DNA from: Paenibacillus sp. FSL K6-3182
Lineage (GTDB): Bacteria > Bacillota > Bacilli > Paenibacillales > Paenibacillaceae
NCBI RefSeq assembly: GCF_037976325.1
Contig: NZ_CP150265.1
Location: forward strand, 3,157,501 to 3,221,500
Direction of reading: 5' to 3'
Length of the DNA: 64,000 nt
Below, one piece after another: positions 14,297-51,210 of this stretch. Below the pieces are notes generated by a model. The model ran no database searches. It was not told the DNA's origin and saw nothing but the letters and a program-made list of their open reading frames with translations. Within the stretch, counting starts at the first letter, position 1. Every line of letters begins with the position of its first letter. The position numbers and the translations under genes are program-made.

Positions 14297-14406
14297 TGCT
14301 TACGGAGTTAGTTTTGTTTTGCAAAACTTGAAGCTTATGCTTACGAAGTAGTTTTGCTTCGCAAAACTAAGCAAATGCTTACGAAGTAGTTTTGCTTCGC
14401 AAAACT
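14297..14406 (+). repeat. Hairpin repeat array A (three copies) in the ptsG-like leader
   Basis: Copies at 14297-14328, 14338-14368 and 14376-14406. Each unit is TGCTTACG(A/G)AGT plus a hairpin. In copies 2 and 3 the hairpin is AGTTTTGCTTCGCAAAACT: eight base pairs closed by a TTC loop. Copy 1 has diverged (TTTTG centre). The last copy runs straight into TTAAGGAGG, the ribosome binding site of the PTS gene. The same family occurs at 22755-22897, 43716-43756 and 51140-51210. Confidence 0.9.
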
Positions 14407-14421
14407 TTAAGGAGGTGCAAG

Positions 14422-16308
14422 ATGGTTTTCATTGGGAGCCTGCAGCAGCTTGGTAGAGCATTCATGCTGCCGATGATTGTTCTGCCAGGTGCGGCTATAT
14501 TTTTGAGTTTAAGCAAGCTGCCATGGGATTACTTTGGCCTTCCAGGGATGGAAGGCTATTTACTAGCTGCAAGCGAAACGATTTTTACATATTTACCATA
14601 TATTTTTGCGCTTGGCATCTCACTAGGCTTAACGGGTAATGCTCTCGCAGCAGGGATGGCTGCTCTTGTAGGTATGGCTATTTATAGCGGTATTACAGGG
14701 TCGGCAGAGGTGCCGATTGAACCAACCGTGCTCATTGGTACACTTATAGGAATTATTTCAGGCGTGAGCCATGAGAGGTTTAAAAGCTTAAAATTACCGG
14801 AATACATACAATTTTTTGGCGGACCGCGGTTTGTACCGTTATTTGTAAGTGTTGTTAGTTTGTTGTTCTCAATAGCTATGATCAATATTGCGCCTTATTT
14901 ACAAAGCATGATGATAAATCTGGGTGAAATTGTTGAATCGGGTGGCGGCTTCGGTGTATTTTTATACGGATTTGTACACAGGATTTTGGTTGTATTCGGT
15001 TTGCATCATTTGGTCAGCCATGTATTCTGGTTTCAAATTGGCAGCTTTGAAACAGCTTCAGGACAGATGGTGTATGGCGATCTTCCGCGTTTCTTCGCTG
15101 GCGATCCTACTGCCGGCTCGTTTATGGCTGGACTTTATCCGACGATGATGTTCGCTTTGCCAGCCATCGCATTCGCCATTATTCACGAAGCGCGCGAGGA
15201 TTTAAAGCCGAAAATTCGGAAAACGTTTATGTATGCAGCGCTTGCGTCATTTCTAACTGGCGTTACTGAGCCGGTTGAGTTCGCATTTTTGTTTGTTGCT
15301 CCGTATTTATACGTCGTCCATGCGATATTGTCAGGCATTATCATGTGGGTTACTTACGAGCTTGGCATTAAGCACGGATTCTCCTTCTCAGCAGGAGCCA
15401 TAGATTATGTTATCAACGAGCATTTGGCAACACGAGGTTGGTTAATCATTCCGATCGGCATCGTTGTTGGCTTCGTTTATTACTTTTTGTTTCGCTGGGC
15501 GATACGAAGATTTCGGATTCCGACACCAGGTCGTGAGGAAGGCTCACAGCTTGATGAATGGGCAGGCGATATCCCTTATCGTGCACCGCTTATTTTGCAA
15601 GCCATTGGTGGTAAACAAAATATAGAAAAGATGGAGTCCTGTATTACAAGACTGCGGCTTAAAGTTTCCAACGATAAGCTGCTCGACATAAATGCGCTTC
15701 GAAATCTGGGCGCTGCAGGTGTAATCAAATTAGGCGGTGGACATGTTCAGGTCGTATTTGGCACGTATTCCGAACTTATTCGTGAAGAAATGATCAAGAC
15801 CATTCATCGTGATCAAGCACAAGTTTTGTTCCACTCGCCGATGCAAGGCCGCATGATTCCTCTTGATGAGGTGCCTGATCCGATATTTGCGGGCAAACTC
15901 GTCGGACAAGGCGTCGCATTTATACCGGAGAAAGGAGAGCTTGTATCGCCGGTTAAGGGCAAGGTGATGCATATTTATCCGACGATGCATGCGATCGGCA
16001 TTCTTACTCCTGAGGGGTTGGAAGTTCTGCTTCATATAGGCATAGATACTTCGCGTCTGGCTGGCAAAGCGTATTTTAATGCGCTCGTTAAAGAAGGGGA
16101 CGAAGTTACGCCAGGCATGATGCTTATAAAATTTGATTTGCAGCGTGTTCGAAAGGAGAGCAAATCTCTTGCTACTCCTATGGTCATAACAAATTCTGAT
16201 CTTGTTCACTCATGGCGATTTGCACCTTTCAAAGCGGTGAAAAAGGGGCAGTCCTCGGTATTGTCTGTTGTACTTAAAGAGAGAAACGGTGGAGGGGAAA
16301 CACAATGA
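14422..16308 (+). CDS. PTS system glucose/N-acetylglucosamine-family IICBA permease
   Basis: Imports and phosphorylates a hexose at the membrane. 628 residues in the order IIC (about 1-370, with some eight to ten membrane segments and the GVTEPVEFAF motif), IIB (about 380-460, phospho-Cys 407 in MESCITRLRL) and IIA (about 480-628, phospho-His 538 in VLLHIGIDTSRL). FSAGAIDYVINEHLATRGW and RRFRIPTPGRE look closer to NagE-type than to glucose-type members, so the substrate (glucose or GlcNAc) is left open. The ATG at 14422 has AAGGAGG 9 nt ahead; an in-frame TTG inside the repeat at 14392 is rejected. It overlaps ptsI by 4 nt, and no ptsH lies between. Confidence 0.92.
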   Translation: MVFIGSLQQLGRAFMLPMIVLPGAAIFLSLSKLPWDYFGLPGMEGYLLAASETIFTYLPYIFALGISLGLTGNALAAGMAALVGMAIYSGITGSAEVPIEPTVLIGTLIGIISGVSHERFKSLKLPEYIQFFGGPRFVPLFVSVVSLLFSIAMINIAPYLQSMMINLGEIVESGGGFGVFLYGFVHRILVVFGLHHLVSHVFWFQIGSFETASGQMVYGDLPRFFAGDPTAGSFMAGLYPTMMFALPAIAFAIIHEAREDLKPKIRKTFMYAALASFLTGVTEPVEFAFLFVAPYLYVVHAILSGIIMWVTYELGIKHGFSFSAGAIDYVINEHLATRGWLIIPIGIVVGFVYYFLFRWAIRRFRIPTPGREEGSQLDEWAGDIPYRAPLILQAIGGKQNIEKMESCITRLRLKVSNDKLLDINALRNLGAAGVIKLGGGHVQVVFGTYSELIREEMIKTIHRDQAQVLFHSPMQGRMIPLDEVPDPIFAGKLVGQGVAFIPEKGELVSPVKGKVMHIYPTMHAIGILTPEGLEVLLHIGIDTSRLAGKAYFNALVKEGDEVTPGMMLIKFDLQRVRKESKSLATPMVITNSDLVHSWRFAPFKAVKKGQSSVLSVVLKERNGGGETQ

Positions 16309-18047
16309 TTCAAGGAATAGGGGCGTCAGCAGGCATAGCGATTGGGAGATCGTTTGTGCTTCCGAATTGGGAATGGGAGTTACCGGAGCAAAAAATCGAT
16401 GTAGCTGATTTTGCCCGCGAGTTCGAACGTGTATACGAAGGCATTCGTACCTCTAAGTCTGAAATTGAACAGATTAAAGATGATCTGCGAGATGTTGTCG
16501 GTTCAGAGGAAACACATATATTCGATGCTCATATAGCCATTTTGGACGATCCTGTCTTTATGAATGAAATCCAAGGTATTATCCAACGCCAGTACAAAGC
16601 GGCTGAAGTTGCTGTTAAGGAAGCTATTGATCATTTTGTTACGATGTTTGATCTGCTTGACGATGAGTACATGAAAGAACGGGCGCTAGATATTAAGGAT
16701 GTGGGCAATCGATTGCTGAAGCATCTGCTGGGAGCGCCAGAAATTACACTGCCTTCAGATACGCAGCCATTTATATTGATTGCTAAGGAGTTGTCTCCTT
16801 CTCAGCTAGCACATATTAATCCGCAGCATGTGCTCGGCATTGTGACTCTTGCTGGCAGCAAAACTTCACATTCAGCTATTATGGCTAGAGCGCTCGGCGT
16901 ACCTCTTGTTGTTGGTGTAGAGACGAGGTTAGTTGAGCCTATTCAAACAGGGCAAACGCTAGTTATTGATGGTAATGACGGCACTGTGTTTATCGATCCT
17001 GCTCAGCAAGTTATTGACTATTACACTGAGCTGCACTCCCATCAATCGGAAGCGAAAAAAAGACTGCACGGCATTGCAGGTCATCGCCCGGTAACGCCTG
17101 ATGGCAAAAGGCTGGAGCTTGCAGCCAATATTAGCTCCTACAAAGAGCTGGAAATTGCGATGTCGAGCGGGGCGCATGGGGTTGGGCTGTTCCGCACGGA
17201 ATTTTTGTACATGGATCGAAATCGGTTTCCAAAGGAAGAAGAACAGTTTGAGGTATATCGCAGCGTAGCCGAACGCCTTGAGGGTGAGCCGCTCGTCATC
17301 AGAACGCTGGATGTCGGCGGTGACAAGCAGCTCGATTATTTTGACCTGCCAGAGGAAGACAATCCTTTCCTAGGTTACAGAGCCATTCGGATATCGCTGG
17401 ATCGTAAAGATTTGTTCAAAACGCAGCTTCGTGCTATTTTGCGGGCAAGTCATTACGGTCAAGTAAAGCTTATGTATCCGCTTATTTCATCTGTCGATGA
17501 AGTACGTGCTGCAAATGCAGTATTAAACGAAGCGAAGCTTGAGCTTGAAGCAGCGGGGTATCCCTATGATAAAGGGATGAAGATCGGAATTATGATTGAA
17601 GTTCCTGCCGCAGTTATGATCGCTGATTTACTCGCGGAAGAGGTTGATTTCTTTAGTATCGGCACGAATGACCTGGTACAGTTTACGTTAGCTGTGGATC
17701 GTATGAATGAGGAAATCGCACACTTGTATGAGCCTTACCATCCAGCGCTCATTCGAATGCTGCGCATGACGGTGGAAGCGGCAAAACGAAGCGGGATTAC
17801 GGTTGGCGTGTGCGGTGAGCTTGCAGGGGATCTAAGAGCGCTGCCGATATGGCTAAGCCTTGATGTAGATGAGCTGAGCATGTCTTCACATTCGATTTTG
17901 CCCATCAAGGAAAGGCTGCTCTTCACTTCACAAGAAGAAAGCCATGAGGTATTTCAGCAGCTGCATCATTGCCGTACAAGTACAGAAATATTAGAGCAGC
18001 TAACTGGTTTTATGGAGCGCTTGGACAAAAAAACAGCGAATGGTTAA
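16305..18047 (+). CDS. ptsI: PTS Enzyme I (phosphoenolpyruvate-protein phosphotransferase)
   Basis: Takes the phosphoryl group from PEP and passes it to HPr. 580 residues, full length. The phospho-His is H189 in SKTSHSAIMAR (same number as in E. coli Enzyme I). The C-terminal PEP-binding barrel has FRTEFLYMDR, DVGGDKQLDYF, and the catalytic Cys at 503 in GVCGELAGD. The usual GGRTSHS is GSKTSHS here, which is mild. Start ATGA overlaps the permease stop, so the two are translationally coupled. In B. subtilis and relatives ptsH separates ptsG and ptsI; here it is absent from the operon, so HPr must be encoded elsewhere, or this pair is a second, dedicated set. Confidence 0.95.
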   Translation: MIQGIGASAGIAIGRSFVLPNWEWELPEQKIDVADFAREFERVYEGIRTSKSEIEQIKDDLRDVVGSEETHIFDAHIAILDDPVFMNEIQGIIQRQYKAAEVAVKEAIDHFVTMFDLLDDEYMKERALDIKDVGNRLLKHLLGAPEITLPSDTQPFILIAKELSPSQLAHINPQHVLGIVTLAGSKTSHSAIMARALGVPLVVGVETRLVEPIQTGQTLVIDGNDGTVFIDPAQQVIDYYTELHSHQSEAKKRLHGIAGHRPVTPDGKRLELAANISSYKELEIAMSSGAHGVGLFRTEFLYMDRNRFPKEEEQFEVYRSVAERLEGEPLVIRTLDVGGDKQLDYFDLPEEDNPFLGYRAIRISLDRKDLFKTQLRAILRASHYGQVKLMYPLISSVDEVRAANAVLNEAKLELEAAGYPYDKGMKIGIMIEVPAAVMIADLLAEEVDFFSIGTNDLVQFTLAVDRMNEEIAHLYEPYHPALIRMLRMTVEAAKRSGITVGVCGELAGDLRALPIWLSLDVDELSMSSHSILPIKERLLFTSQEESHEVFQQLHHCRTSTEILEQLTGFMERLDKKTANG

Positions 18048-18057
18048 CCCATTCGCT
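18032..18057 (-). terminator. Terminator whose loop holds the stop codons of both convergent genes
   Basis: ACAGCGAATGG and CCATTCGCTGT pair around TTAAC; the loop contains the ptsI stop (18045-18047) and the stop of the PfpI gene (18044-18046 on the reverse strand). Seven A precede the stem on the + strand, which is a T-run for reverse-strand transcripts. It therefore terminates the PfpI gene and lies inside the coding ends of both genes. Confidence 0.75.
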
Positions 18058-18574
18058 GTACTAGTGCATCTACAAACGCTTTTGCATAAGGAGGAAGATC
18101 GGGCGGACGGCGTGCGGAAATGAGATTTCCATCAACAACGACGGCTTCATCGAACCATGTCGCTCCTGCATTTTCCATGTCATCTCGAATGCCTGGTGTT
18201 GAAGTGACTTTGCGCCCCTCCAATATTTTCGCCGAGATGAGTACCCAGCCCGCATGACAGATTTGGCCGATCGGTTTGTCAGCGGCATTCAGTTCTTGTA
18301 CGAGCTGGAGAACTTTAGGATAACGGCGAAGCTTATCAGGTGCCCAGCCGCCTGGGACCAATAAACCGATAATGTCTTCGCTATTTACTTCATCAAATGA
18401 CAAATCAGCTACTGCAGGCACGCCGTATTTTCCGATATGTGTTTTACCTTTCTCAGGTCCAGCATATAAAACGGTCGCACCAGCTTCACGCGCACGATAT
18501 ACGGGATACCATAGCTCCAAATCCTCAAATTCGTCGTCTAGCAAGCAGATGACGGTTTTATTTTGTAACGGCAT
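18044..18574 (-). CDS. DJ-1/PfpI family protein
   Basis: Class I glutamine amidotransferase-like protein, 176 residues, of the PfpI/YhbO type (protein or metabolite deglycase and stress protection in characterised relatives). The nucleophilic elbow is GQICHAGW with Cys106; the upstream acidic partner is in LLDDEFEDLELWYP, and the VPGGWAPD segment is conserved. The usual AICHG is QICHA here, so the oxyanion-site Gly follows one residue later. It is convergent with ptsI and shares its final 4 nt with it. Start ATG at 18574 has a GGAGGG site. Confidence 0.9.
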   Translation of the reverse strand: MPLQNKTVICLLDDEFEDLELWYPVYRAREAGATVLYAGPEKGKTHIGKYGVPAVADLSFDEVNSEDIIGLLVPGGWAPDKLRRYPKVLQLVQELNAADKPIGQICHAGWVLISAKILEGRKVTSTPGIRDDMENAGATWFDEAVVVDGNLISARRPPDLPPYAKAFVDALVQRMG

Positions 18575-18626
18575 ATTTTTCCCTCCATCTAGTAAAGATC
18601 TCTATTATTGTAACGAAGGAGAAACA

Positions 18627-19064
18627 ATGAAGCAAACGGAGAGTTATTCTAAACCATTTTCATACGTTAGGCTGCTGCGCTTTTTGCCGGCTATTGCATG
18701 GATGGCTGTTATATTTGCGCTATCTTCGAGAACAGGTGATGAGATAAATACCTTTCTCCCTTTCTTTCAAAAGTTTTTCCCCTTTATGGAAGGTTTTAAT
18801 TGGGGCCATTTTGTTTCCTACTTCATACTTGCACTTACGATAGACTACGGCATTGGCAAGAGGGGCGACCGATTTTGGATGAAGGTCGTTATTGTACTTA
18901 TTTGTGGTTTATATGGAATTACAGATGAATATCATCAGTCTTTTGTTGGCGGCAGAATGCCGGACGTTATGGATGTGCGGAATGATCTTATCGGAGCAGC
19001 GATTTGGACGATTGTTGCAGCTGTGCCGCCAGTAAGGAAAATGTGGAGAAAAGTTGCGCCATAA
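18627..19064 (+). CDS. VanZ-family membrane protein
   Basis: 145 residues with three or four membrane helices. The VanZ pattern is visible: LSSRTGDE after helix 1, HFVSYFILALTIDYG, then DEYHQSFVGGRMPDVMDVRNDLIGAAIW with the conserved Glu, His, Gln, Arg, Asp and Asn. VanZ itself gives low-level teicoplanin resistance; the role of the many chromosomal relatives is unknown. The open frame extends back to 18372, antisense to the PfpI gene, but the AAGGAG site marks the ATG at 18627. Divergent from the PfpI gene with 52 bp between starts. Confidence 0.88.
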   Translation: MKQTESYSKPFSYVRLLRFLPAIAWMAVIFALSSRTGDEINTFLPFFQKFFPFMEGFNWGHFVSYFILALTIDYGIGKRGDRFWMKVVIVLICGLYGITDEYHQSFVGGRMPDVMDVRNDLIGAAIWTIVAAVPPVRKMWRKVAP

Positions 19065-19222
19065 CTAGCATTTAGTGTTCAATTTTGAGTGTGATTTTAG
19101 TAGTAAAAATTACAAGGTTGTGCATGCAGGAATTTGTGCGAAAATAGTCGAATCATTTATACATTATTACTCTGAAAGCTATGGTTGTTACGATAGCTGC
19201 TACTATGAAGGAGTGGACCACT

Positions 19223-19636
19223 TTGCATAAGAGTTGTCATTGTGGCGACATCATGAAGATGAAACTGCGCACAGTTATTTACTCAGGGAAGGTTGAGATC
19301 GATAACGTTCCTATATATTCTTGCACAACCTGCAATCGCAGTGAAGTATTTCCGGAAGTAAAACCTGATTTATCAGGTTTAATAGCACAATTGGGGGCTC
19401 AACCAGACAAGCAGACATTCCTTTTTAATGAATGCAACGAGTGGGCTAGCATTCTGGTAGAGGCAAAGGCAGACAAACAGCAGACGGATCGCATTGGATT
19501 CGAGAGACTGGTTGAGCAGAGAATCAATAAGCTACTTGATTTGTATTTGCTTGCTCAAACGCTTAACGATGAAGCATGGATTTTGGATTTGAAAAAGAGA
19601 CTTGAGCAAATAAGCCGTCGAACGTTGCTTACATAG
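19223..19636 (+). CDS. Small protein with two CxC/CxxC pairs (putative zinc site)
   Basis: A TTG at 19223 with AAGGAG 9 nt upstream gives 137 residues starting LHKSCHCGDIMKMKLRTVIYSG; ATG at 19205 overlaps the ribosome site and is less likely. The N-terminal 45 residues carry CHC and CTTC, spaced as in zinc-ribbon folds with a beta strand pair between. The rest is helical (FERLVEQRINKLLDLYLLAQTLND). I do not recognise the family. A candidate promoter (TTGTGC, 17 bp, TTATAC) lies about 60 bp upstream. Function unknown. Confidence 0.65.
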   Translation: MHKSCHCGDIMKMKLRTVIYSGKVEIDNVPIYSCTTCNRSEVFPEVKPDLSGLIAQLGAQPDKQTFLFNECNEWASILVEAKADKQQTDRIGFERLVEQRINKLLDLYLLAQTLNDEAWILDLKKRLEQISRRTLLT

Positions 19637-19691
19637 AAGCTCAGATTATTGATTTTACAAGCCGTGCAGATGAGTGAAACATGCGTCAACA

Positions 19692-19720
19692 TTGCGAAAA
19701 GAAATATTTTGTCGTATGAT
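19692..19720 (+). promoter_or_regulatory. Candidate ccpA promoter
   Basis: TTGCGA at 19692-19697, 17-bp spacer, TATGAT at 19715-19720, leaving a leader of about 50 nt before the ccpA start. Confidence 0.6.
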
Positions 19721-19776
19721 AACGTTAATATGCGTCGTGCGTAATTATAAAATCTGAGCTAATGGAGAGAAACACT

Positions 19777-20781
19777 GTGACGGTAACCATTTATGATGTA
19801 GCAAGAGAAGCAGGAGTATCAATGGCTACGGTTTCTCGGGTTGTGAACAATAATCCCAATGTGAAACCAGCAACACGCAAAAAAGTATATGAAGCAATAG
19901 AGCGACTAGGATATCGTCCAAATGCCGTAGCAAGGGGCTTGGCAAGTAAGAAAACAACGACGGTGGGCGTAGTTATTCCTGATATTTCAAATGCTATTTT
20001 TGCTGAAGTAGCACGCGGAATTGAAGATATCGCAAATATGTATCATTACAATATTATTTTGTGTAATGCGGATAAGAAAAAAGACAAAGAAATCCGTGTT
20101 ATCAATACACTTCTTGAGAAGCAAGTAGACGGCTTGCTATTTATGGGCGGGGCAGTGACGGAAGAGCATTTGCAAGCATTTAAGACGGCTAATGTTCCGA
20201 TTGTACTTTGTGCAACTTCCGATGAGAGCGGACAAATTCCGTCTGTTGACATCAACCACGAGGATGCTGCGTTCGATGCTGTACAAAACTTGTATGAGCA
20301 AGGACATAGAAGAATTGCAATGATCAGCGGAACACTGCAAGATCCATCCATTGGTTATGCAAGATTCCAAGGCTATAAGCGTGCACTTGAAGCAGCAGGT
20401 ATCGCTTATGATGATGCTTTAGTTCGTACGGGCAACTACCGTTATGAATCAGGCGCAGAAGCGATGAAATATTTTATTGAGCTGGACGAGCGTCCGACAG
20501 CTGTGTTCTCCGCAACGGATGAAATGGCGATCGGCGCAATTCACAGCATTCAGGATTCCGGCTTAAGAGTACCGGATGATATATCTGTCATTAGTGTTGA
20601 TAACAGCCGTATGGCATCTATGGTTCGTCCACAGCTTACAGCTGTAGCACAGCCAATGTATGATATTGGCGCGGTATCGATGCGTTTGCTGACAAAGCTG
20701 ATGAAGAAAGAAAATGTAGATCAATCCAAAGTTGTGCTGCCGCATGAGATTATCGTGCGCCAATCGGTTGGAGGAATATAA
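19777..20781 (+). CDS. ccpA: Catabolite control protein A
   Basis: LacI-family regulator that, with Ser-phosphorylated HPr or Crh, binds cre sites and controls carbon use. GTG start at 19777 ([23 protein letters not shown]) with GGAGAG upstream; the ATG at 19762 lies on that site. 334 residues: the N-terminal helix-turn-helix, a hinge with [10 protein letters not shown], then the periplasmic-binding-like core with [24 protein letters not shown] and the C-terminal [21 protein letters not shown]. Sequence and length fit CcpA rather than a sugar-specific paralogue. mtnN follows after 5 nt. Proximity to the acu/acs genes matches B. subtilis. Confidence 0.95.
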
Positions 20782-20786
20782 AAGAA

Positions 20787-21485: not shown

Positions 21486-21494
21486 ACGAAATAA

Positions 21495-21539
21495 AAAGAA
21501 CCAGCTCTGATGCCAACATCGGAACTGGTTCTTTTTTTT
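21495..21539. terminator. Terminator between mtnN and acuC
   Basis: AAAGAACCAG (21495-21504) pairs with CTGGTTCTTT (21525-21534), with a second small stem inside, followed by T; the opposing A-run lets it serve the convergent acuC as well. Confidence 0.88.
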
Positions 21540-21564
21540 GTGCGAGCTTGATGCTGTAATTGGA

Positions 21565-22740
21565 TTACAGATCTTGAATAACGATCTGCTGCATCATTCT
21601 GTTTTTGTTCGTAATTTCGATTCGTCTAGGCATAGGCTCAATATCTTCGGGATCGTCCATCCAATGCGTAGGGAGCTTGTGAGGGCTAATGGATTCCCAA
21701 TGGCTCAACCAGCGATCTGGAAGCCTAGCTTCTTCACCAGCTGCAATCGCATGTGCAATAGGGTGATCAATCATTGTAAGCCATACTAAAGACCAAGCTC
21801 GTGGAACGACGCGGAAAATATCATAACCGCCGCCGCCTAACGCAATCCAGCGGCCATCGGTATAGGTATGGGCTAATTCATGTATGATAGCAGGGATTTG
21901 AGCATATATACGCATGCTGCAATGAATGTGAGAGAGCGGGTCAAAGGCATGAGCATCGCAGCCGTGCTGACTAATAATGACATCTGGTTTGAAGGCCGAA
22001 ATGATTTTGCGCAACGTAATATTAAAGCTCTCCAGCCAGGATTCATCCTCTGTGTACGGTTCTAACGGCACGTTAAAGCAAGCGCCAAAACCATGATCTG
22101 TGCCTTTTTCGTGCACGTAGCCTGTACCTGGAAACAAAAATTTTCCCGTTTCATGGATCGAATAGGTGCATACGTCTGGATCGTCATAGAAAACCCACTG
22201 AACACCGTCCCCGTGATGGACATCCGTATCAATATAAAGCACTTTTGCACCATACGTTTGACGGATATGCTTAATAGCGACTGCTGCATCATTATAAACA
22301 CAGAAGCCTGAGGCGCGGTCAGGGAAGGCGTGATGCAATCCTCCGGCAAGATGGTAGGCATGCTTGGCTTGGCCCGTCATAACAAGCTCAGCGGCCGTCA
22401 CAGAGCCTCTGACGATGGACATAGCTGCCTTGTGCATGCCAGGGAAATAAGGAGTGTCTTCTGTATGTAGTCCAAACTGCTGTGCAAGTACGCTGTTATC
22501 ATTGATTTCGGCTTCACTCAATTGTTTAACAGCGTCCAAATAGTCGGTTCTATGGACGAGTGACAACAGCTCATCCTCGGAATACACTGCAGGAGGCTGG
22601 ATATCCTCATCATACAAAGCATCAACTTCTTTGAGCAGATCGATCGTTAGAGCAAGCCGCAGCGGATCGAAAGGATGCTCCTCACCGAATTTATATCCGC
22701 TAGTATCCGAATGATAGATGAAAATAGAGTCAGAAGCCAT
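21565..22740 (-). CDS. acuC: Acetoin utilisation protein AcuC, histone-deacetylase family
   Basis: Zinc-dependent deacetylase, 391 residues, expected to remove the acetyl group from acetyl-CoA synthetase and so reactivate it. Landmarks of the class I deacetylase fold: AYHLAGGLHHAFPDRASGFCVYND (His-His pair), YIDTDVHHGDGVQ (Asp and His zinc ligands), GTGY, and IISQHGCDAHAFDPLSH with a further Asp ligand, then ALGGGGYD. AGGAGGATAGGA precedes the ATG. It lies downstream of acuA on the same strand, with an array of four hairpin repeats where acuB sits in B. subtilis. Confidence 0.95.
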   Translation of the reverse strand: MASDSIFIYHSDTSGYKFGEEHPFDPLRLALTIDLLKEVDALYDEDIQPPAVYSEDELLSLVHRTDYLDAVKQLSEAEINDNSVLAQQFGLHTEDTPYFPGMHKAAMSIVRGSVTAAELVMTGQAKHAYHLAGGLHHAFPDRASGFCVYNDAAVAIKHIRQTYGAKVLYIDTDVHHGDGVQWVFYDDPDVCTYSIHETGKFLFPGTGYVHEKGTDHGFGACFNVPLEPYTEDESWLESFNITLRKIISAFKPDVIISQHGCDAHAFDPLSHIHCSMRIYAQIPAIIHELAHTYTDGRWIALGGGGYDIFRVVPRAWSLVWLTMIDHPIAHAIAAGEEARLPDRWLSHWESISPHKLPTHWMDDPEDIEPMPRRIEITNKNRMMQQIVIQDL

Positions 22741-22754
22741 TCCTATCCTCCTAA

Positions 22755-22897
22755 AGGTTTGCGAAGCAAACCAGCATCGTAAGCGTTACTTAGGTTTGCG
22801 AAGCAAACCAGCATCGTAAGCATAAACTTAGGTTTGCGAAGCAAACCAGCATCGTAAGCATAAACTTAGGTTTGCGAAGCAAACCAGCATCGTAAGC
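22755..22897 (-). repeat. Hairpin repeat array B (four tandem copies) between acuA and acuC
   Basis: Copies at 22755-22784, 22792-22821, 22830-22859 and 22868-22897, period 37 to 38 bp, nearly identical. Read on the reverse strand each is GCTTACGATGC followed by a hairpin GGTTTGC-TTC-GCAAACC, and the last copy runs into TTTAGGAGG, the ribosome site of acuC. They fill the whole 163-bp gap between the two genes. Stem sequence differs from array A by a paired T-A to G-C change. Confidence 0.92.
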
Positions 22898-22903
22898 AAA
22901 AGC

Positions 22904-30432: not shown

Positions 30433-30768
30433 AATGTTTTATCTAATCAATGCTTTGAAGGGCATGAGTAGACAGCGAATCGTACTTTCAGAGAGCCGGT
30501 GGGTGGTGGAAACCGGTATGCGCCGCTTGTTGAATTACCGCCTGGAGCTAAGTGAAGGAACCGTATACTGACAATCCTCTGCACATTTTGGCAAAAAAGC
30601 CTGTGGGGCAGTCGAATCAGCCGTAGTAGTTCACTTCGGAGCCCGTCTCCGTTATCAACAACGAAGTGAGAGTACCTCTTTTTTATGTGAAAAAAGGTAG
30701 GAGTACTCTAACGAGGGTGGTACCGCGAGCTAATCCTTCTCGTCCCTTGGGGCTGGAAGGATTTTTTA
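30433..30768 (+). promoter_or_regulatory. T-box riboswitch, tyrosine-specific, upstream of tyrS
   Basis: Senses uncharged tRNA-Tyr. The leader carries the AGTAGA motif, the apical AGAGAG and the hairpin CCGGT/ACCGG of stem I, and the 3' side of the specifier loop reads GAATTACCG, giving TAC (30536-30538), a tyrosine codon. A long stem around 30668-30709 (GAGTAC/GTACTC arms) is stem III. The T-box core is AGGGTGGTACCGCG at 30714-30727; the terminator is AATCCTTC (30732-30739)/GAAGGATT (30756-30763) followed by T. Confidence 0.94.
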
Positions 30769-30804: not shown

Positions 30805-32061
30805 ATGGTGAAGTGGGAAAGTTTAAGTGGTGAGCAGAAAAGTGAGGTCGAGCGTCAGCTGGCTGTCATTCGCCGCGGTGTTGTGGAGATTGTACCTGAG
30901 GATGATTTGAAAAATAAAATAGCGAATGCTGTCGCAACAGGAAAGCCATTAAATGTAAAGCTAGGACTTGATCCTTCAGCGCCAGACATTCATATCGGCC
31001 ATACGGTTGTTCTTCACAAGCTTCGTCAATTTCAGGAACTCGGTCATCAGGTTCAACTGATTATCGGTGATTTTACAGGCAGAATTGGTGATCCAACCGG
31101 CAAATCGGAAACGAGGAAGCAGTTGACGGAAGAAGATGTGAAGCGGAATGCGGAAACATACCAAAAACAAATTTACAAAATATTAGATCCACAGCAAACA
31201 AAGCTCTACTACAACTCGGAATGGCTTGCACCGCTTAACTTTGCGGATGTTGTAAATCTAGCCGGGAAAGTAACGGTTGCACGCATGATGGAGCGTGATG
31301 ATTTCACAAAGCGGTACACGAGCGGCTTGCCGATCAGCATTCATGAGTTTTTCTACCCGCTGATGCAGGGATACGATTCCATAGCTCTTGATTCTGATGT
31401 GGAGCTAGGAGGCACGGATCAGACATTTAACCTGTTAATGGGCAGAACCTTGCAGAAGGAATATAATAAACCGGGCCAAATCGTAATTACGACTCCTTTG
31501 ATCGAAGGGTTGGACGGCGTAAATAAAATGAGCAAAAGCTTGGGCAATTACATCGGTATCGATGAAGAGCCAAACCAAATCTACGGCAAATCGATGTCGA
31601 TTCCAGATAGGCTTATGCTCAAATATTACGAGCTTGCTACCGATTTAAGCAACGAGGAGCTTGCGGCATTGAAAGCTGGGCTAGCAGATGGTTCTGTACA
31701 TCCTCGTGATGCGAAGATGCAGCTTGCAGCGACATTTGTACGAATGTACCACGGCGAAGAGGCAGCGAAAGCGGCAGAAAATCATTTTATAACCGTATTT
31801 CAACAACGTGCGCTGCCTGATGATATCGAAGAGGTATCGATTGCTGCGGAACAATTGGAAGATGGCCAAATTCGCATCGTGAAGCTGCTCACTCTGCTTG
31901 ACTTGCTGCCAACGAGCAGTGAAGCGAGAAGAAGCGTTCAGCAAGGGGCAGTGCGTCTAAATGAAGAGAAGATAACTGATATTAATGCGGATATTTCTCC
32001 TAAGGATGGCGACGTGCTTCAAGTTGGAAAACGTAAATTTATAAAAATTAAATTAACATAA
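30805..32061 (+). CDS. tyrS: Tyrosyl-tRNA synthetase (TyrZ-like subtype)
   Basis: Charges tRNA-Tyr. 418 residues: HIGH motif at 63-66 (DIHIGHTVVL), class I Rossmann core, KMSKS in GVNKMSKSLGN, and a C-terminal S4 RNA-binding domain ending DVLQVGKRKFIKIKLT. The N-terminus (RRGVVEIVPEDDLKNKI, VKLGLDPSAPDIHIGH) looks like the TyrZ type of B. subtilis rather than TyrS. A strong GGAGG precedes the ATG. Controlled by the tyrosine T-box. A neighbour of rpsD in this region, as B. subtilis tyrS is. Confidence 0.95.
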   Translation: MVKWESLSGEQKSEVERQLAVIRRGVVEIVPEDDLKNKIANAVATGKPLNVKLGLDPSAPDIHIGHTVVLHKLRQFQELGHQVQLIIGDFTGRIGDPTGKSETRKQLTEEDVKRNAETYQKQIYKILDPQQTKLYYNSEWLAPLNFADVVNLAGKVTVARMMERDDFTKRYTSGLPISIHEFFYPLMQGYDSIALDSDVELGGTDQTFNLLMGRTLQKEYNKPGQIVITTPLIEGLDGVNKMSKSLGNYIGIDEEPNQIYGKSMSIPDRLMLKYYELATDLSNEELAALKAGLADGSVHPRDAKMQLAATFVRMYHGEEAAKAAENHFITVFQQRALPDDIEEVSIAAEQLEDGQIRIVKLLTLLDLLPTSSEARRSVQQGAVRLNEEKITDINADISPKDGDVLQVGKRKFIKIKLT

Positions 32062-42144: not shown

Positions 42145-42150
42145 ATAAAG

Positions 42151-42189: not shown

Positions 42190-42196
42190 GATTCCA

Positions 42197-43345: not shown

Positions 43346-43355
43346 GACAGCACCG

Positions 43356-43700
43356 TTACGCTAACAATTGTTTCAATTGCTGAAGTCTTTGCGTCGCCGT
43401 ACTCATAATTGGCTGTGGAATCGGGGACTCATACTCAAGACCATGCGGGAAAGTGGAGCGTCCAATATAAACCGATTCGATAATTAGAACGGCATGAGGT
43501 GATTCAAGCTTACCTTCAATGGCTCTTGTTGTAATTCTCAAATAATAATCGGATCCGCTAGCGTGATCCTCAAGTTTCAAGTCGTATGTAGCGCGATAGT
43601 ATTCCCACTGCCAACGGACAAAACCAACTTTTTCAGCAGATTCGTCTAAGTGGTCAAGTTCGCTTTTAACACCGTTTAAGCCGGTATTTTCAATAATCAT
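43356..43700 (-). CDS. YugN-like family protein
   Basis: 114 residues. Start ATG at 43700 after GGGAGG (MIIENTGLNGVKSELDHLDESAEKVGFVRWQWEYYRATYDLKLED). The pattern with PHGLEYESPIP near the end recalls the YugN-like family of Bacillales, of unknown function. It is immediately upstream of ftsW and so probably read with it. A degenerate hairpin repeat sits in its leader, right before the ribosome site. Confidence 0.75.
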   Translation of the reverse strand: MIIENTGLNGVKSELDHLDESAEKVGFVRWQWEYYRATYDLKLEDHASGSDYYLRITTRAIEGKLESPHAVLIIESVYIGRSTFPHGLEYESPIPQPIMSTATQRLQQLKQLLA

Positions 43701-43715
43701 GGTAGTTCCTCCCAA

Positions 43716-43756
43716 AGGTTTTGTGAAGCAAAACTGACTTTACTAGCATATGCTTC
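43716..43756 (-). repeat. Degenerate hairpin repeat D upstream of the yugN-like gene
   Basis: Read on the reverse strand it is ATGCTAGTAAAGTC followed by AGTTTTGCTTCACAAAACCT and TTTGGGAGG. Same order as in arrays A to C (TGCTTACGAAGT, hairpin, ribosome site) with several substitutions, one of which (C-G to C-A) breaks the last stem pair. Single copy. Confidence 0.65.
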
Positions 43757-43984
43757 CATTTCAAAAGACAGAGTTGTACATTCTTTTCTCATGATAGTAT
43801 GTTTCCCCAGCAAGCGCAACCCTTACTCCCACCCCTTGTTGTGAACAAAAGTGACATTTTGAAGAAAACTAATATTCCTAACGATTTAGTGATGCTTTTG
43901 CTTCCTAATTAAGCCGTTCATCTGGTAAACTAAATGGCATGATAGGATTCGTAGTTTTTTTGAAAATGTAAGGGGGTTTGCGAT

Positions 43985-45181: not shown

Positions 45182-45249
45182 GAGCGGATGCTCAGGCTCT
45201 AAAAAGGTTATGCTAAACCTCGTAACTTATAATCGAGGAGGTATTTCAG

Positions 45250-45693: not shown

Positions 45694-45696
45694 TAT

Positions 45697-45747
45697 AAAT
45701 AAGGCTGTCCGAGTGCGCTGTTAAACGCGCTTGGACAGCCTTATTTG
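45697..45747. terminator. Bidirectional terminator between the CBS and nuclease-like genes
   Basis: AAATAAGGCTGTCC (45697-45710) pairs with GGACAGCCTTATTT (45733-45746) around a GC-rich inner stem. Confidence 0.85.
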
Positions 45748-45750
45748 TTA

Positions 45751-46596
45751 TTAGTCTTCCCATACGGCTACTAATTCATTGTATTCATTATAGAGCTCCG
45801 CAGGGTCCGATTCTTTGTTGTTCCAAATATTTGTTGCTCCCCAAAGGAGCAGGTCATCATCTGATGAACGCACCTCGTCTGCTGAGGAAATGACTACTCT
45901 TTTCTGTGCATTCAGGACATATTGGCCAAACGGATAGGTTTGATTGCCTCGAACGCTAACCAGCTTCCAGCCTTTCATTTGAATGGCATCATCCGTCGTA
46001 TTCGTTATGGTGACAAGCTCGGCTTGTTTGTCCACCTCAATCGTAATGCCGCTTCGCGCCGCTTTTTTTACAGGGAAACTTGTGTGATTAATTTCGGCGT
46101 CATTGCTCCATAAACCTTGCTTAGCTTGTTCAGCTTGCTGCTCCAACTGCTTGTATGCGTTTTCCATCTTGACGTTAGGCTCTATGATGAGTACCTTCGC
46201 AAGACCTTCCTCGATAAGCGCCTCGTTTAATATCCGTCCATCCTTCAGCTCCACGATTGCAAGCGTACGATCGTAGCGATCTTTAAGCTCCTTATCGAAA
46301 GTAAGCCTAACCTCTTGCGACTCTGTCAGAAGCGTCTCAGTGAAGGCAGCAGCTTCGGGTCCGAATGGATCGGCTGGACTATCTTGTTTCTTGGTCTCCG
46401 GCGTATCTACATAAAGTAGTCGAATCGTCGTTTCACTAGAACCTGTTTTGATTTTGAAAGTATCACCATCTATAAAGCCAGCTACCTGATACCATTGGTT
46501 GGTTTGTATAACGTTCGAAGAAAGCTCGGAAATGGCCGTACAGCCGGCAAGCGGCATGCAAATGAGCATGAGGAGAATGATTATAATTCTTTTCAT
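45751..46596 (-). CDS. SNase-like nuclease lipoprotein with C-terminal lamin-tail domain
   Basis: 281 residues. Signal with lipobox MPLAGC (about 14-19) for lipid anchoring outside the membrane. A thermonuclease domain (about 35-165) with VDTPETK and DRYDRTLAIVEL; the catalytic residues of staphylococcal nuclease are the Arg of IRLLYVDTPE, the Glu of DGDTF/VDTPE context and the Arg in DRYDR, which are present. The C-terminal 100 residues look like a lamin-tail domain (ITNTTDDAIQMKGWKLVSVRG). Likely degrades extracellular DNA or RNA; unproven. Confidence 0.88.
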   Translation of the reverse strand: MKRIIIILLMLICMPLAGCTAISELSSNVIQTNQWYQVAGFIDGDTFKIKTGSSETTIRLLYVDTPETKKQDSPADPFGPEAAAFTETLLTESQEVRLTFDKELKDRYDRTLAIVELKDGRILNEALIEEGLAKVLIIEPNVKMENAYKQLEQQAEQAKQGLWSNDAEINHTSFPVKKAARSGITIEVDKQAELVTITNTTDDAIQMKGWKLVSVRGNQTYPFGQYVLNAQKRVVISSADEVRSSDDDLLLWGATNIWNNKESDPAELYNEYNELVAVWED

Positions 46597-46793
46597 AGAT
46601 GCGGTACCTCCACCCCAATTTGCAGTTTATATACAATCTTCTTATTACTATAACACATCTTGAACATAAAAATCGCGCAGTTGTCCAGATACTTAAAGCA
46701 TAAAATGGTGTTAATTTCTTCATACTGTGAGGAAGAGCAAGATCTAGGCTGTTTTTTTGAGAGGCCGTTTTGATGAATTTTTGAAGGAGGAGA

Positions 46794-48497
46794 ATGATGC
46801 AGCATCCAAACGATCAGCCATTAATTGTGCAATCAGACTTAATGGTTCTGCTTGATGAACGCAAGCCACATGCACAGCAAGCTAGAGATAAGCTCGTTCT
46901 CTTCATGGATGCAATTAGAAGAGCTGGAGCGATCCATACTTATCGAATGACACCTTTGACTCTCTGGAATGCAGCAGCAGCTGGGATTACTGGCGAAGAA
47001 ATCATAGGTTGGCTAACAGAATACAGCAGATACGAGCTGCCATTTCAAGCGGAGGTAATGATTCGCAAACTGATGAGTAGATATGGCAAGCTTTGGTTAT
47101 CTACGGAATCGAACAAACTGATGCTGCACGGAGAACAAGCTATTTTGGATGAGCTTTCGGAACAATTGTCAATAACAAGCTGGGTAAAAGCACGGCTTAA
47201 TGCCGCTTGGGAGCTTGATGAAGGCTGCAGAGGCGCCTTGAAGCAGGAGCTGACACGACTTGGATATCCTGTCATTGATCTAGCAGGCTATCATGTGGGC
47301 GAGGAGCTACCGGTAGAGCTGAGGAAGCATACGCTGCGAAATCGTTTGTTTGATTTAAGGGACTATCAGCAGGCTGCTGTCGAGCTTTTTTATAAGGAAG
47401 GCAAAGTGGAAGGCGGGAGCGGCGTAATCGTATTGCCTTGCGGAGCGGGTAAAACCATTGTGGGCATAGCCGCATTGGCTCGTTTGGGCAGAGCAACACT
47501 TATACTTACCTCTAATTCTACCTCCGTAAAACAATGGAAAGACGAGCTGCTGGATAAAACGTCGCTGTTGGATGCGGATGTTGGTCAATATTGCGGCACA
47601 TTGAAGCAGGTACGACCTGTTACGATAGCAACTTATAATATTTTAACGCATCGCAAATCCAAGGAGTCTCCTTTTACCCATATGAAGCTGTTCTCCGAAC
47701 GGGATTGGGGGCTAATTATTTACGATGAGGTGCATTTGCTGCCAGCTCCAGTCTTCCGGATGACTGCAGATATACAAGCGACAAGACGGCTTGGCTTAAC
47801 CGCGACACTCGTACGTGAGGATGGCTGTGCTGAGGATGTATATTCATTAATAGGTCCGAAGCAGTTCGACATGCAATGGAAGACAGCCGAGGCTGGCGAG
47901 CATATAGCGGCAGTAGCTTGCACAGAGATTAGGGTTCCACTGCATATAAGTAAAGCGGCTTTGTATGCACAGGCCTCTGCGCGTTCTAAGCTCAGATTGG
48001 CTGCGGAAAATCCTGCAAAAATCAAAGTTGTAGAGCAGCTATTGCGGGAGCATGCAGGCAAACCGACTTTAATTATTGGCCAGTATTTGCACCAGCTGCA
48101 TGAGCTGTCCGCAGTTATTGGCGCTCCCTTGCTGACGGGAGAGGTGCCGCAGCTCGAGAGACAAATGCTTTATGACAGCTTTAAAGCAGGCGACATATCA
48201 GTGTTAATCGTATCCAAGGTAGCTAATTTTGCAGTGGATTTGCCTGATGCATCCGTAGCCATTCAATTATCCGGCAGCTTTGGCTCACGGCAAGAGGAGG
48301 CTCAACGGATTGGGAGATTGCTGCGGCCAAAAGCGATTAACAATTGCGCATGGTTTTATACCATTGTAACGGATCAGACGAAGGAAACGGAATTTGCGAT
48401 GAAAAGACAGCTTTTTATGCTGGAGCAAGGGTATCACTACGAGAGACTTAGCTTGCCGCATGATGAGGACAAGCTTGAGGAGGCTGCTGCTCTATGA
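46794..48497 (+). CDS. XPB/Rad25-type DNA helicase
   Basis: Superfamily 2 helicase, 567 residues; ATG codons at 46794 and 46797 both follow GGAGG. The N-terminal 190 residues are a damage-recognition-like domain. Motif I is LPCGAGKTIVG, motif II DEVH in LIIYDEVHLLP, motif III LTATLVRED containing the RED triplet that identifies XPB, motif VI QRIGRLLRPK. The second RecA domain has LIIGQYLHQL and ISVLIVSKVANF. Eukaryotic and archaeal XPB act in repair and transcription; the bacterial role is not established. It overlaps the next gene by 4 nt (ATGA). Confidence 0.93.
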   Translation: MMQHPNDQPLIVQSDLMVLLDERKPHAQQARDKLVLFMDAIRRAGAIHTYRMTPLTLWNAAAAGITGEEIIGWLTEYSRYELPFQAEVMIRKLMSRYGKLWLSTESNKLMLHGEQAILDELSEQLSITSWVKARLNAAWELDEGCRGALKQELTRLGYPVIDLAGYHVGEELPVELRKHTLRNRLFDLRDYQQAAVELFYKEGKVEGGSGVIVLPCGAGKTIVGIAALARLGRATLILTSNSTSVKQWKDELLDKTSLLDADVGQYCGTLKQVRPVTIATYNILTHRKSKESPFTHMKLFSERDWGLIIYDEVHLLPAPVFRMTADIQATRRLGLTATLVREDGCAEDVYSLIGPKQFDMQWKTAEAGEHIAAVACTEIRVPLHISKAALYAQASARSKLRLAAENPAKIKVVEQLLREHAGKPTLIIGQYLHQLHELSAVIGAPLLTGEVPQLERQMLYDSFKAGDISVLIVSKVANFAVDLPDASVAIQLSGSFGSRQEEAQRIGRLLRPKAINNCAWFYTIVTDQTKETEFAMKRQLFMLEQGYHYERLSLPHDEDKLEEAAAL

Positions 48498-50539
48498 AAA
48501 TGAAACAGCTGCTAGGCAAGTTATCTGCTGAGCGCTTGGATCATATGATGCAAGGACTGCTATGGCAGAAAGCCGGTCAAAGAGGCCTGTCATGGGAAGA
48601 AGCAGCGGTGGACGATGAGACAATCCGCGAAGCTGTATCTATGCTCTCGCCGTATGCAGCCGAAGTATTGACGGAAATGCTGCGTTATTTTGCAGCTGCT
48701 CCCGCAGACGGAGAACGGCTCCTTAAAGTTCTTCGGAACAGCACAAGCCTCTCAGGGGCGGAATGTCAGCTCGCATTGGCAGAGCTTGAGGAATGGGGCG
48801 TATTATTCACGGTACATAAAGTATGGGGAGAGAGTCTGTATTTTATGCCTGTAGAATGTTTCGCTGTGTGGCAGAGGATGTTATTCCCATACAAAGCTGT
48901 GGTGCTGACTGAGCATCAGAGGGAAAGACTAATGAATGGTGTCATGCGACCTCATTGCAGGCCGCTTGGCAGACAGCTGCTCAGTGCCTTTTCGTTATTG
49001 GGGCGAAGCGGCTTATCTCTTACGACAAACGGCACGCTTCCCAAAAAGACGATTGCTAAGCTGCTGCAGGCTGCAGATTTGGAGGAGTGCTGGCTTAAAT
49101 CATTTGATCTGAAATGGTCCTACTCTGATATTTATCCTGTACAGGTTGCCTTCATTTTGGAAGCGGGTTTTGCGTTTGGGCTGTTAACAGCAGTGAATGG
49201 GGCAATGAAATGGAATGATGACCAGCTTAGAAAATGGCTTATGCTTGATGAGGCTGTGAGAGAATATCAATTAATGAATTGGTGCTTGGCGATGCTGCTT
49301 CCAGCCGCAGGTGGAAACGCCCATTTGGCTGCCTCGTTGACGAGCCTTCAAGCAGGTGAATGGTATTCTAATCAGTGTGTGGATACGTGGCTTCATGAGA
49401 ATCGGATCGTTGCTGATATAGGCCCGGAGCAAAACATAAATCGAAATCAACCAAGGCCAAGCTGGTTTGGTTTATGGCATAATCTAGGCTGGATGGAGCT
49501 GGTAGATTGTCAGCAAGCAGCGGACAATGAGTTTTTTTTCAGATGGAAAGCAGCTGCTCCTTTACGTAAAGTGCCACCGGTGCAGGTGAAGGATATGGAT
49601 GCAGTGGTTTCCGTTCAACCGAATGGGGAATTGATTGTACAGCCAGAATGTCCCTTCTGGATAAGGTGGGAGCTGGAGCTGATTGCTGAACGCAAATCAG
49701 ATGAGCAGGTTTCTGTTTACCGTCTTGAAGCAGCATCAATTACAAGGGCGCTGGAGCAAGGAAGATCAAGAGCCTCCATTCAAAGCTTTCTTGAGCAGGC
49801 ATCAGGCGGAGATCATTTGCCTTCTACGGTAATCGCTTTGTTGGAAGTATGGACGAGCCGTGCTAGCCGTACTTTCTTCGCCGAAGTTGTGCTGCTGCGC
49901 TGCGATAGTGAAGAGATGGCGGCAATAGTGGAAAATGATTCTGGTGTAGCCCCTTTATTGATGGAGAAGCTTGGTCACTTGGATTTCATTGTTGAAAAGT
50001 CTCATATAAGTGAGATTCGAGCATGTTTGCAAAAAGCAGGATATCCCGCACGCAAAATGGTTCAGACAGAATTTGCGAATGACGAATATAATTACCCATT
50101 CGTTAGTTTCGATATAGAGGGATCGCGCTTACTTGAACTTCTGCCGAAGGAGGAATCAAAAATACCCGCTCCTTCTTATATTTATGAAGCTTTTCCGCTT
50201 CATCATTATGAACTCAGTGATTTAGCCGCTAGGAAAAAACCGCTTTTGTTCTTTGAAATGGAGCTTGTGCCTTCCATGTGGACAAAGCAGCTGCGTGCAT
50301 ACCATCATTCGACAAGAAAAGAATTAATTGAGAAGGCATTGCAATGGCAAACGCCTGTTCAACTTCGCATGGAAAGGGAGCTTCGTTCATTTGTGCCTGA
50401 GAAGCTTGAGCAGCAAGGCGACGGATGGGCCGTCGTCGGGCTGCTGCGTGATGACCCGCAGCGAGAGCAGATCAGGTTGACTCCTGATATGTGGGAAGAG
50501 ATGTGCTTAGTGATACCAGGCCAAGGCAGCCCAATATAA
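48494..50539 (+). CDS. Helicase-associated protein with XPB/Ssl2 N-terminal-like domain
   Basis: 681 residues, starting inside the helicase stop. The N-terminal half is helical and not recognised. A segment at about 360-480 (AVVSVQPNGELIVQPECPFWIRWELELIAERK, then VYRLEAASITRALEQG and LPSTVIALLEVWTSR) is the pattern of the helicase-associated domain (XPB/Ssl2 N-terminal, PF13625-like). It would form a two-gene repair-type unit with the helicase through translational coupling. No nuclease motif seen. Exact role unknown. Confidence 0.75.
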   Translation: MKMKQLLGKLSAERLDHMMQGLLWQKAGQRGLSWEEAAVDDETIREAVSMLSPYAAEVLTEMLRYFAAAPADGERLLKVLRNSTSLSGAECQLALAELEEWGVLFTVHKVWGESLYFMPVECFAVWQRMLFPYKAVVLTEHQRERLMNGVMRPHCRPLGRQLLSAFSLLGRSGLSLTTNGTLPKKTIAKLLQAADLEECWLKSFDLKWSYSDIYPVQVAFILEAGFAFGLLTAVNGAMKWNDDQLRKWLMLDEAVREYQLMNWCLAMLLPAAGGNAHLAASLTSLQAGEWYSNQCVDTWLHENRIVADIGPEQNINRNQPRPSWFGLWHNLGWMELVDCQQAADNEFFFRWKAAAPLRKVPPVQVKDMDAVVSVQPNGELIVQPECPFWIRWELELIAERKSDEQVSVYRLEAASITRALEQGRSRASIQSFLEQASGGDHLPSTVIALLEVWTSRASRTFFAEVVLLRCDSEEMAAIVENDSGVAPLLMEKLGHLDFIVEKSHISEIRACLQKAGYPARKMVQTEFANDEYNYPFVSFDIEGSRLLELLPKEESKIPAPSYIYEAFPLHHYELSDLAARKKPLLFFEMELVPSMWTKQLRAYHHSTRKELIEKALQWQTPVQLRMERELRSFVPEKLEQQGDGWAVVGLLRDDPQREQIRLTPDMWEEMCLVIPGQGSPI

Positions 50540-50609
50540 TCTCTATCTATTGGCTAATTAAATATGATATGATAGTGTAGAATTTAGCGAATGGGAAAGA
50601 GGTGGATAA

Positions 50610-51104
50610 ATGCCAACTGCTGAAGGTTTAACGGCTATTCAATTGGAGCAACCGCAAGGCGGCGTTTCTTCTCTCGATATGGCGTCGCTGCTGCTTTGCG
50701 CCTATGATTTAGGTGATTCGATTAATCAATCGGCGGAAGTTGCCGAATATTTATATTGGAAGTCAGCTGTGAATGAAGATGAAGAAGTGAAGCAAATTAC
50801 CAAACGGTTCGATAAAGCGAAGATACTGTTTGAGGAATGCCAACGATTCGGGCGCTTTCATCCTGACTACAACGAAGCGAAAGACAAAGTGAAGCAAATC
50901 GAACGAGAGCTAAGCGAAATTGAAAGCGTTCGCCGCTTCAAGCTAGCCGAGCAGATCGTTGATGAAATGCTTTATGATGTATCCCGCACGATAGCGGAGT
51001 CCGTTTCGGACAATATTAAAGTGCCTGGCAATGAAAAAGCTGCCGGCGGCGGTAGCTGTGGAAGCGGCGGCTCATGCAGCTGTGGAAGCGGCGGTTGCAG
51101 TTAG
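50610..51104 (+). CDS. ylbF: YlbF/RicF-family protein with Cys-rich tail
   Basis: 164 residues. The helical YlbF core (DMASLLLCAYDLGDSINQSAEVAEYLYWK, later IERELSEIESVRRFKLAEQIVDEMLYDVSRTIAESV) is the RicF component of the RicAFT complex that steers RNase Y and competence/biofilm decisions in B. subtilis. The end is a Gly/Ser tail with four Cys (SCGSGGSCSCGSGGC), consistent with a bound Fe-S cluster as reported for the Ric complex. AAAGAGG before the ATG. ylbG follows, as in B. subtilis. Confidence 0.9.
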   Translation: MPTAEGLTAIQLEQPQGGVSSLDMASLLLCAYDLGDSINQSAEVAEYLYWKSAVNEDEEVKQITKRFDKAKILFEECQRFGRFHPDYNEAKDKVKQIERELSEIESVRRFKLAEQIVDEMLYDVSRTIAESVSDNIKVPGNEKAAGGGSCGSGGSCSCGSGGCS

Positions 51105-51139
51105 TTAGTAGCCATAAGAGCGAACAAGGAAGAAGCATA

Positions 51140-51210
51140 GGCTTACGAAGTGAGGTTTGCTACGCAAACCTAGGTAAATGCTTACGAAGTGAGGTTTGCT
51201 ACGCAAACCT
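51140..51210 (+). repeat. Hairpin repeat array C (two copies) between ylbF and ylbG
   Basis: Copies at 51140-51171 and 51179-51210, period 39 bp. Unit: GGCTTACGAAGTG then AGGTTTGCTACGCAAACCT, eight pairs with a TAC loop. The second copy runs straight into TTGAGGAGG, the ylbG ribosome site. Third pair of the stem is G-C here and T-A in array A: a compensatory change. Confidence 0.92.

Follow-up and report, generated by a model that had tools for sequence, protein, structure and literature searches.

Small palindromic repeats usually sit loosely between genes. The mycobacterial interspersed repetitive units (MIRU) occur between genes at translation starts, as tandem arrays that vary in copy number and are oriented like the gene; they are not known to have a hairpin core, and they overlap start and stop codons. 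The repetitive extragenic palindromes (REP) of E. coli, Pseudomonas and others, named together with the REP-associated tyrosine transposases (RAYT), are described as short, dispersed, high-copy palindromes with stems that are free to vary (PMC2817692). Bacillus mRNAs are described as being stabilised by occluded 5′ ends and/or strong Shine–Dalgarno sequences (SDs), and stabilising leaders such as ermC, cryIIIA, STAB-SD and aprE carry a hairpin and/or a strong SD (PMC3997798). The promoters of the bacteriophage N4 virion RNA polymerase, in turn, are described as template-strand DNA hairpins with a 3-base loop containing a sheared G:A pair, on a 7-bp stem in the structure described (PMC4496689). 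The genome of Paenibacillus sp. FSL K6-3182 harbours a repeat that has something in common with all four. It was noticed in a stretch of 64,000 nucleotides (contig NZ_CP150265.1, positions 3,157,501 to 3,221,500; the window) and is built from units of about 38 bp, each with a box TGCTTACGAAG, a short spacer and a locus-specific hairpin of 6–9 bp whose loop is mostly T-N-C. Genome-wide, its clusters run in sense orientation into the SD and start codon of unrelated genes.

In habit the repeat is nearest to MIRU, with which it shares the tandem arrangement, the position at gene starts, the orientation and the variable number; unlike MIRU its units end before the SD and overlap neither start nor stop codon, and the phylum is a different one. 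The Bacillus stabilising leaders belong to single genes, whereas the Paenibacillus repeat is a dispersed family. It is neither a REP/RAYT element nor an Rfam RNA. A scan of the window with Rfam gave no match to the repeat at gathering score, its only match being a T-box elsewhere in the window, and array a, the first of the window arrays, came nowhere near gathering score for any family, which gives the repeat some value for annotation. Literature searches aimed at it found nothing on the repeat among the matches listed, and a full-text search for the letters of the unit likewise produced, among the matches listed, only papers that look unrelated by title.

Placement was surveyed with a 36-position covariance model built from the ten window copies. 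In the 7.56 Mb genome it returned 126 rows at E ≤ 10 and 112 at E ≤ 1, the latter forming 44 clusters of one to nine units; the search scored the best 150 of about 9,500 candidates, and weak copies may be missed. When the clusters were printed and the downstream frames read, all 44 ran in sense orientation into an SD and a start codon. The sequence-only reading had proposed a dispersed 5′-leader element at ribosome sites and had held that random orientation and distance to start codons would speak against it; orientation and SD placement are fixed at 44/44 clusters, and for this genome the proposal is borne out. Five further sites lie between E 1 and 10, two of them SD-linked (L069 and L079) and three not, these last being chance-like (L078, L080 and L081); calculations on 46 sites refer to the 44 clusters plus L069 and L079. 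An SD pattern missed one of the 46 (L058), whose SD is GAGGTG. A 6-pair stem with at least 5 Watson–Crick pairs ends 0–7 nt 5′ of the SD at 42 of the 46 sites, and exactly 3 nt from it in 22; the misses are L052, L069 and L072, where stems are weak, and L065, where another fold won. Cluster orientation tracks the gene and not the half of the chromosome: the first half contains five minus-strand clusters, and the second has two on the plus strand. The arrays printed for this genome are all head-to-tail, and opposite-strand model rows (E above 2) overlie forward units.

The genes behind the elements include rnhA, rnjA, dnaB, mnmG, rpmA and rplY by family matches on fragments and, by eye, murB, rapZ, ctaD, map, transporters, lipoproteins and regulators; ten proteins were matched to families, and most other downstream gene names were assigned by eye. 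Independently of hairpin and SD, a count of exact GCTTACGAAG gave 101 copies against 52 for a reversed-pattern control. Some 36 exact box copies lie outside arrays; none of the 22 examined is an element, most being inside long open frames, and one, within an open frame, having a chance one-mismatch stem. The SD is AGGAGG in 35/46 element genes versus 9/51 open reading frames of the window, a set of mechanical start calls that includes four element genes. This excess of strong SDs is compatible with a preference for such targets as well as with a requirement for a strong SD. The window holds four of the 44 clusters against 0.37 expected from 44 per 7.56 Mb. Three more clusters lie within 100 kb of it.

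The box is nearly invariant across 40 terminal units (the last parseable unit per locus, at L060 a non-terminal one), and by eye the spacer 5′ of the stem varies (AGTA, AGTGA, ATGC, AGATA, AGCC). The stem stays paired while its sequence changes; together with the 44 clusters in the genome, four of them in the window, this puts the observation beyond chance. Watson–Crick pairs number 301/320 in the 40 units against a mean of 229 and a maximum of 249 in 2000 sets of re-dealt 3′ arms, a comparison in which the shuffles were not re-optimised; the fairer version, in which real and re-dealt arms both had their offset re-optimised, gives 302/320 against a mean of 250 and a maximum of 263 in 500. Stem pair 6 is G-C in 19 and T-A in 17 of these units, and the stems of orthologous murB leaders change with compensation (AGGTTTTG/CAAAACCT, AGGCTTTG/CAAAGCCT and GGTTTTTC/GAAAAACC). 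Stems thus covary between sites and between species, as the sequence-only reading had suggested checking; its step from compensatory change to an RNA function found no support. Among 236 distinct units from all loci, non-SD families included, G.T and A.C mismatches at stem positions 2–7 number 23 and 17 (p 0.43), no bias towards the sense RNA and hence no sign of constraint on the sense RNA alone; over all seven positions A.C outnumbers G.T by 40 to 26, mostly as C.A beside the loop. The loop itself matches a DNA hairpin motif on the template strand. T stands first in 170 and C last in 152 of 188 three-base loops, while the middle base is free (T 100, A 41, G 32, C 15). On the sense strand T-N-C occurs 144 times and G-N-A twice; loops one base off TTC differ at place 1 in 5, at place 2 in 65 and at place 3 in 11 cases, and between two genomes of the same species six loci show, by eye, a terminal-loop change confined to the middle base and two loci a change of another kind. 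The template strand reads T-N-C as GNA, with the full GC-GNA-GC in 89/188, and GNA or GNNA loops on G-C pairs are described as exceptionally stable DNA minihairpins (PMC4686876). Folding energies of the two strands are equal for two of three units with small differences in the third, a comparison that is uninformative because the parameters are not known to include a GNA term.

Once at a gene, the element is inherited. A tree of AcuC from eighty named loci, in which Paenibacillus sp. FSL A5-0031 (99% AcuC identity) is closest to the window, has an acuC array in 14 (L111–L121, L124, L137, L148); in L122, L123 and L134 relics or a hairpin alone remain. The terminal stem GGTTTGC/GCAAACC is common to 14/14, and the loops vary (TGC, TTC, TAC, TACC). 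The longest array seen, 16 units with one cut short, is also in an acuC leader (L117:9388-9990). On the ptsG side 14 loci match the model at E ≤ 0.05, spread over four distinct parts of the AcuC tree (the clade of this genome; L127/L128; L134; L175/L187), the weak matches L118 and L123 not being used as tree labels; this scatter could mean that the element was gained repeatedly, or that it is ancient and was lost many times.

Array size turns over within the species. Comparison with another genome of the same species (G058) covered 18 orthologous leaders among 30 element-bearing G058 loci. The element is present in both genomes at 18/18, the G058 loci having been chosen as element-bearing, and the number of units differs at 11/18, the gene starts being 94.7–100% identical. 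Examples, with this genome first, are L055 (9 vs 2), dnaB (3 vs 1) and murB (1 vs 3); numbers come from reading and a rough counter, which gives 2 vs 1 for dnaB where reading gives 3 vs 1.

Leaders without the element place its boundary at the SD. Among 30 same-genus murB leaders, from 51 genomes searched, box plus hairpin occur in 10 and a hairpin lacking the box in one; four more are degenerate, and the other 15 are free of the element. L267 reads TTTAATCAGCT|AGGAGGTTCAACTA where L272 reads TTTGAGCAAGAGCT, a 35-bp unit and AGGAGGTTCAACTA, a difference of one unit directly 5′ of the SD; before the unit the junction is AGCT in L267 and GAGCT in L272, and no target duplication is visible in this comparison. 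In four ptsG leaders (L121, L124, L137, L148) promoter and SD are present without a unit, and the ptsG leader of L184, outgroup of L182, has the SD only. A sigma-70-like promoter motif is likewise found in orthologous leaders of the phosphotransferase system (PTS) gene that have no element. As the SD is present in element-free leaders, the repeat abuts the SD and does not carry it, a revision of the earlier suggestion that it inserts at, or carries, a ribosome site.

We favour, at roughly even odds (about 0.5), the reading that this is a palindromic repeat which amplifies in tandem via DNA hairpins and persists in 5′ leaders, probably as a module of mRNA stability or translation that combines a hairpin with a strong SD. 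Units would be placed directly 5′ of pre-existing strong SDs of unrelated Paenibacillus genes and, once there, would be inherited while expanding, contracting and homogenising as head-to-tail arrays. A DNA hairpin in the birth and repair of units is suggested by stems that change on both sides with no strand asymmetry, by the DNA-type apex and by arrays that are hypervariable and homogenised; both array change and palindrome repair could be helped by the C-GNA-G apex of the template strand. That units sit strictly at strong SDs, in the orientation of the gene, argues for selection or target choice at the leader; they may be kept there since a self-contained hairpin with a strong SD at the end of a leader would be harmless or useful. 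The most likely use would be that of a stability or translation module, as in the Bacillus leaders, with copy number as its tuning knob. An SD-locked, copy-variable repeat at dozens of genes would supply a ready-made library of natural variants in translation and mRNA stability, and would lend itself to clean tests of whether DNA hairpins drive array change and how repeats reach ribosome sites.

Several observations weigh against this reading. No recombinase or transposase was identified, a Y1 search of this genome being without match. Array units and orthologues are related and not independent, and the covariation and loop counts therefore suggest more events than there were. SD linkage in six relatives is limited to 22 sites by pattern, or 23 by eye, out of 64, four model rows (three in G013, one in G002) being left out, so that SD placement is not intrinsic to everything the model finds. 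Some unit-free leaders look like losses, as L182, with the last stem bases kept, and L278 retain remnants, and the unit-free murB leader L267 may also be a loss. Predicted openness of the SD does not differ between leaders with the element and with it deleted (0.448 vs 0.415, p 0.30), which leaves simple exposure of the SD by the hairpin unsupported; it is better only than with shuffled elements (p 0.0035), a result kept as weak. Finally, another hairpin, often the box CGAAG with the loop CTTCG, is the best local fold in at least 8 of the 46 leaders (L049, L052, L060, L064, L065, L067, L072 and Wc); it could be a switch or a trace of the origin of the unit. Such an alternative hairpin beats the SD-proximal one in L049, L060, L064, L065, L067 and L072. 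An outer stem GCUUA/UAAGC(G) is compatible with the sequence yet pairs no better than re-dealt tails (18 vs 18.6; 35 vs 36.2) and was rejected.

A possible though doubtful alternative is a selfish, REP-like mobile palindrome whose insertion machinery favours the 5′ side of AGGAGG, the target setting the orientation, with no benefit to the host. The junction at AGGAGG, the unusually strong SDs of the target genes, the occurrence in relatives of related units within other repeats and at rRNA genes, and the filled ptsG leaders at four distinct points of the AcuC tree would all follow from it, and a high-copy short palindrome outside genes (112 matches in 44 clusters at E ≤ 1) is a REP-type feature. 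Yet PF01797 (Y1_Tnp) has no match in this genome and has matches in 5/40 genomes overall and 3/25 in the genus, whereby mobilisation by RAYT was rejected; no stray copies turned up among the 22 box copies examined of about 36 outside arrays; and the acuC stems have stayed intact over long times. In REP elements GTAG or GTGG directly 5′ of the hairpin is conserved, and the arrays known as bacterial interspersed mosaic elements alternate in orientation; the Paenibacillus repeat, by contrast, has a spacer that varies by eye and head-to-tail arrays only, and is in this genome confined to SDs in gene orientation. A REP-like identity in the narrow sense is thus contradicted.

The element might instead be a regulatory RNA leader, in which box and hairpin beside the SD are bound by a shared trans factor, protein or small RNA, and the genes form a regulon. 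Fixed placement and orientation at the SD, the near-invariant box of the 40 terminal units, covarying stems and long conservation at acuC are what one would expect of it. This reading is nevertheless unlikely: the genes are unrelated, gain, loss and copy number turn over fast, there is no G.U excess, a second stem GCUUA/UAAGC shows no covariation and no Rfam family matches.

Far less probable is that the template-strand C-GNA-G apex is extruded under negative supercoiling and serves as a DNA-structure signal, for start or pause, to the host RNA polymerase. Such a signal would explain the near-constant distance from hairpin to SD, the strand-fixed loop (144 T-N-C vs 2 G-N-A) and the free stem sequence. 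With N4 geometry (loop centre at −11), transcription through array a would start 2–3 nt before AGGAGG, and mRNAs would begin at the ribosome site. N4, however, is a phage and Paenibacillus is not. The least probable reading, a weak attenuator or terminator in the leader, can point to the CTTT after the hairpin, but in array a, the only array scanned, the units contain no sense-strand terminator (one match, on the minus strand), the stems are AT-rich with RNA folding at −4.1 to −9.0 kcal/mol in three units, and units also occupy short gaps behind same-strand genes.

In the window itself all ten units were found where the sequence-only reading had placed them, in four groups (a to d) oriented like the downstream gene, the terminal unit of each leading to an SD and a start codon; the downstream genes are unrelated, as it had stated, with family matches to PTS EIIC/EIIB/EIIA, histone deacetylase (AcuC-like), YugN and DUF2129 (YlbG-like). 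Group a, on the plus strand, lies between the sigma-70-like promoter of the PTS gene (14247–14275; TTGACA, 17 nt, TAACAT) and the SD AGGAGG of this EIICBA-type gene (14410–14415, ATG at 14422). Its units are a1 (14297–14328, box GCTTACG at 14298–14304, hairpin 14310–14328 with one T.G pair), a2 (14338–14368, box 14339–14345, hairpin 14350–14368) and the terminal a3 (14376–14406, box 14377–14383, hairpin 14388–14406). Group b, on the minus strand, comprises b1 (22863–22898, hairpin 22869–22885), b2 (22825–22860, hairpin 22831–22847), b3 (22788–22822, hairpin 22793–22809) and the terminal b4 (22753–22785, hairpin 22756–22772), followed by the SD AGGAGG of the acuC-like gene (22747–22752, ATG at 22740). 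The single unit c, also on the minus strand (43717–43750, hairpin 43718–43734 with C.A beside the loop), has a diverged box and precedes the SD GGGAGG of the yugN-like gene (43708–43713, ATG at 43700). Group d, on the plus strand, consists of d1 (51140–51171, box 51141–51147, hairpin 51153–51171) and the terminal d2 (51179–51210, box 51180–51186, hairpin 51192–51210), before the SD AGGAGG of the DUF2129/ylbG-like gene (51214–51219, ATG at 51226). A uniform layout of box, AGT and a 19-nt hairpin of 8 pairs had been described; it applies broadly to groups a and d, where the box is GCTTACGAAGT in most copies, with GCTTACGGAGT in a1. In group b the box is GCTTACGATGC, and unit c has TGCTAGTAAAGT in its place. 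Stems of 8 pairs are likewise limited to a and d, b having 7 (outer T-T) and c 6–7. The reported change of the third stem pair is confirmed: two groups (a, c) have T-A there and the other two (b, d) G-C.

Strict SD locking is shown for this genome and for the 18 loci compared in its same-species partner; for the family as a whole a strict leader role does not extend to the six relatives. The model has matches in all 24 other same-genus genomes (3–108 each) and in 6/15 outside the genus; with many of the sites in relatives not at SDs, the unit is a wider Paenibacillales module. Among 29 single best-site loci 21 pass a loose downstream SD and start test; judged by eye, L101 at least should not have passed. 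Non-SD sites include repeats in G013 and G002. Units abut the 5′ end of 5S rRNA in L228, L230 and L241, lie in 23S–5S spacers in L232–L235, and are antisense at the 23S 3′ end in L259 and L260 and in the 16S leader in L243 (rRNA genes by eye). G010 and G014 contain a separate repeat of more than 100 bp that is not at SDs (L206–L208, L211–L213, L217, L219, L221, L223, L224), with GATCGCCATTAC in most copies, then the same box, the hairpin GCTTTCCTACGGAAAGC and TTTAAGCGAACGCT. Array a had no match among phage sequences and one in a plasmid collection, on a 2.7 Mb Paenibacillus replicon, where by eye an SD and start follow it. In a few SD-linked units (L343:1520-1595, L242, L248, L253, L256) the apex is enlarged by a nested insert, with the basal stem and SD junction kept. 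The T-box leader of the window (RF00230, 114 bits, 30446–30750, plus strand) stands directly 5′ of a 418-aa open reading frame at 30805.

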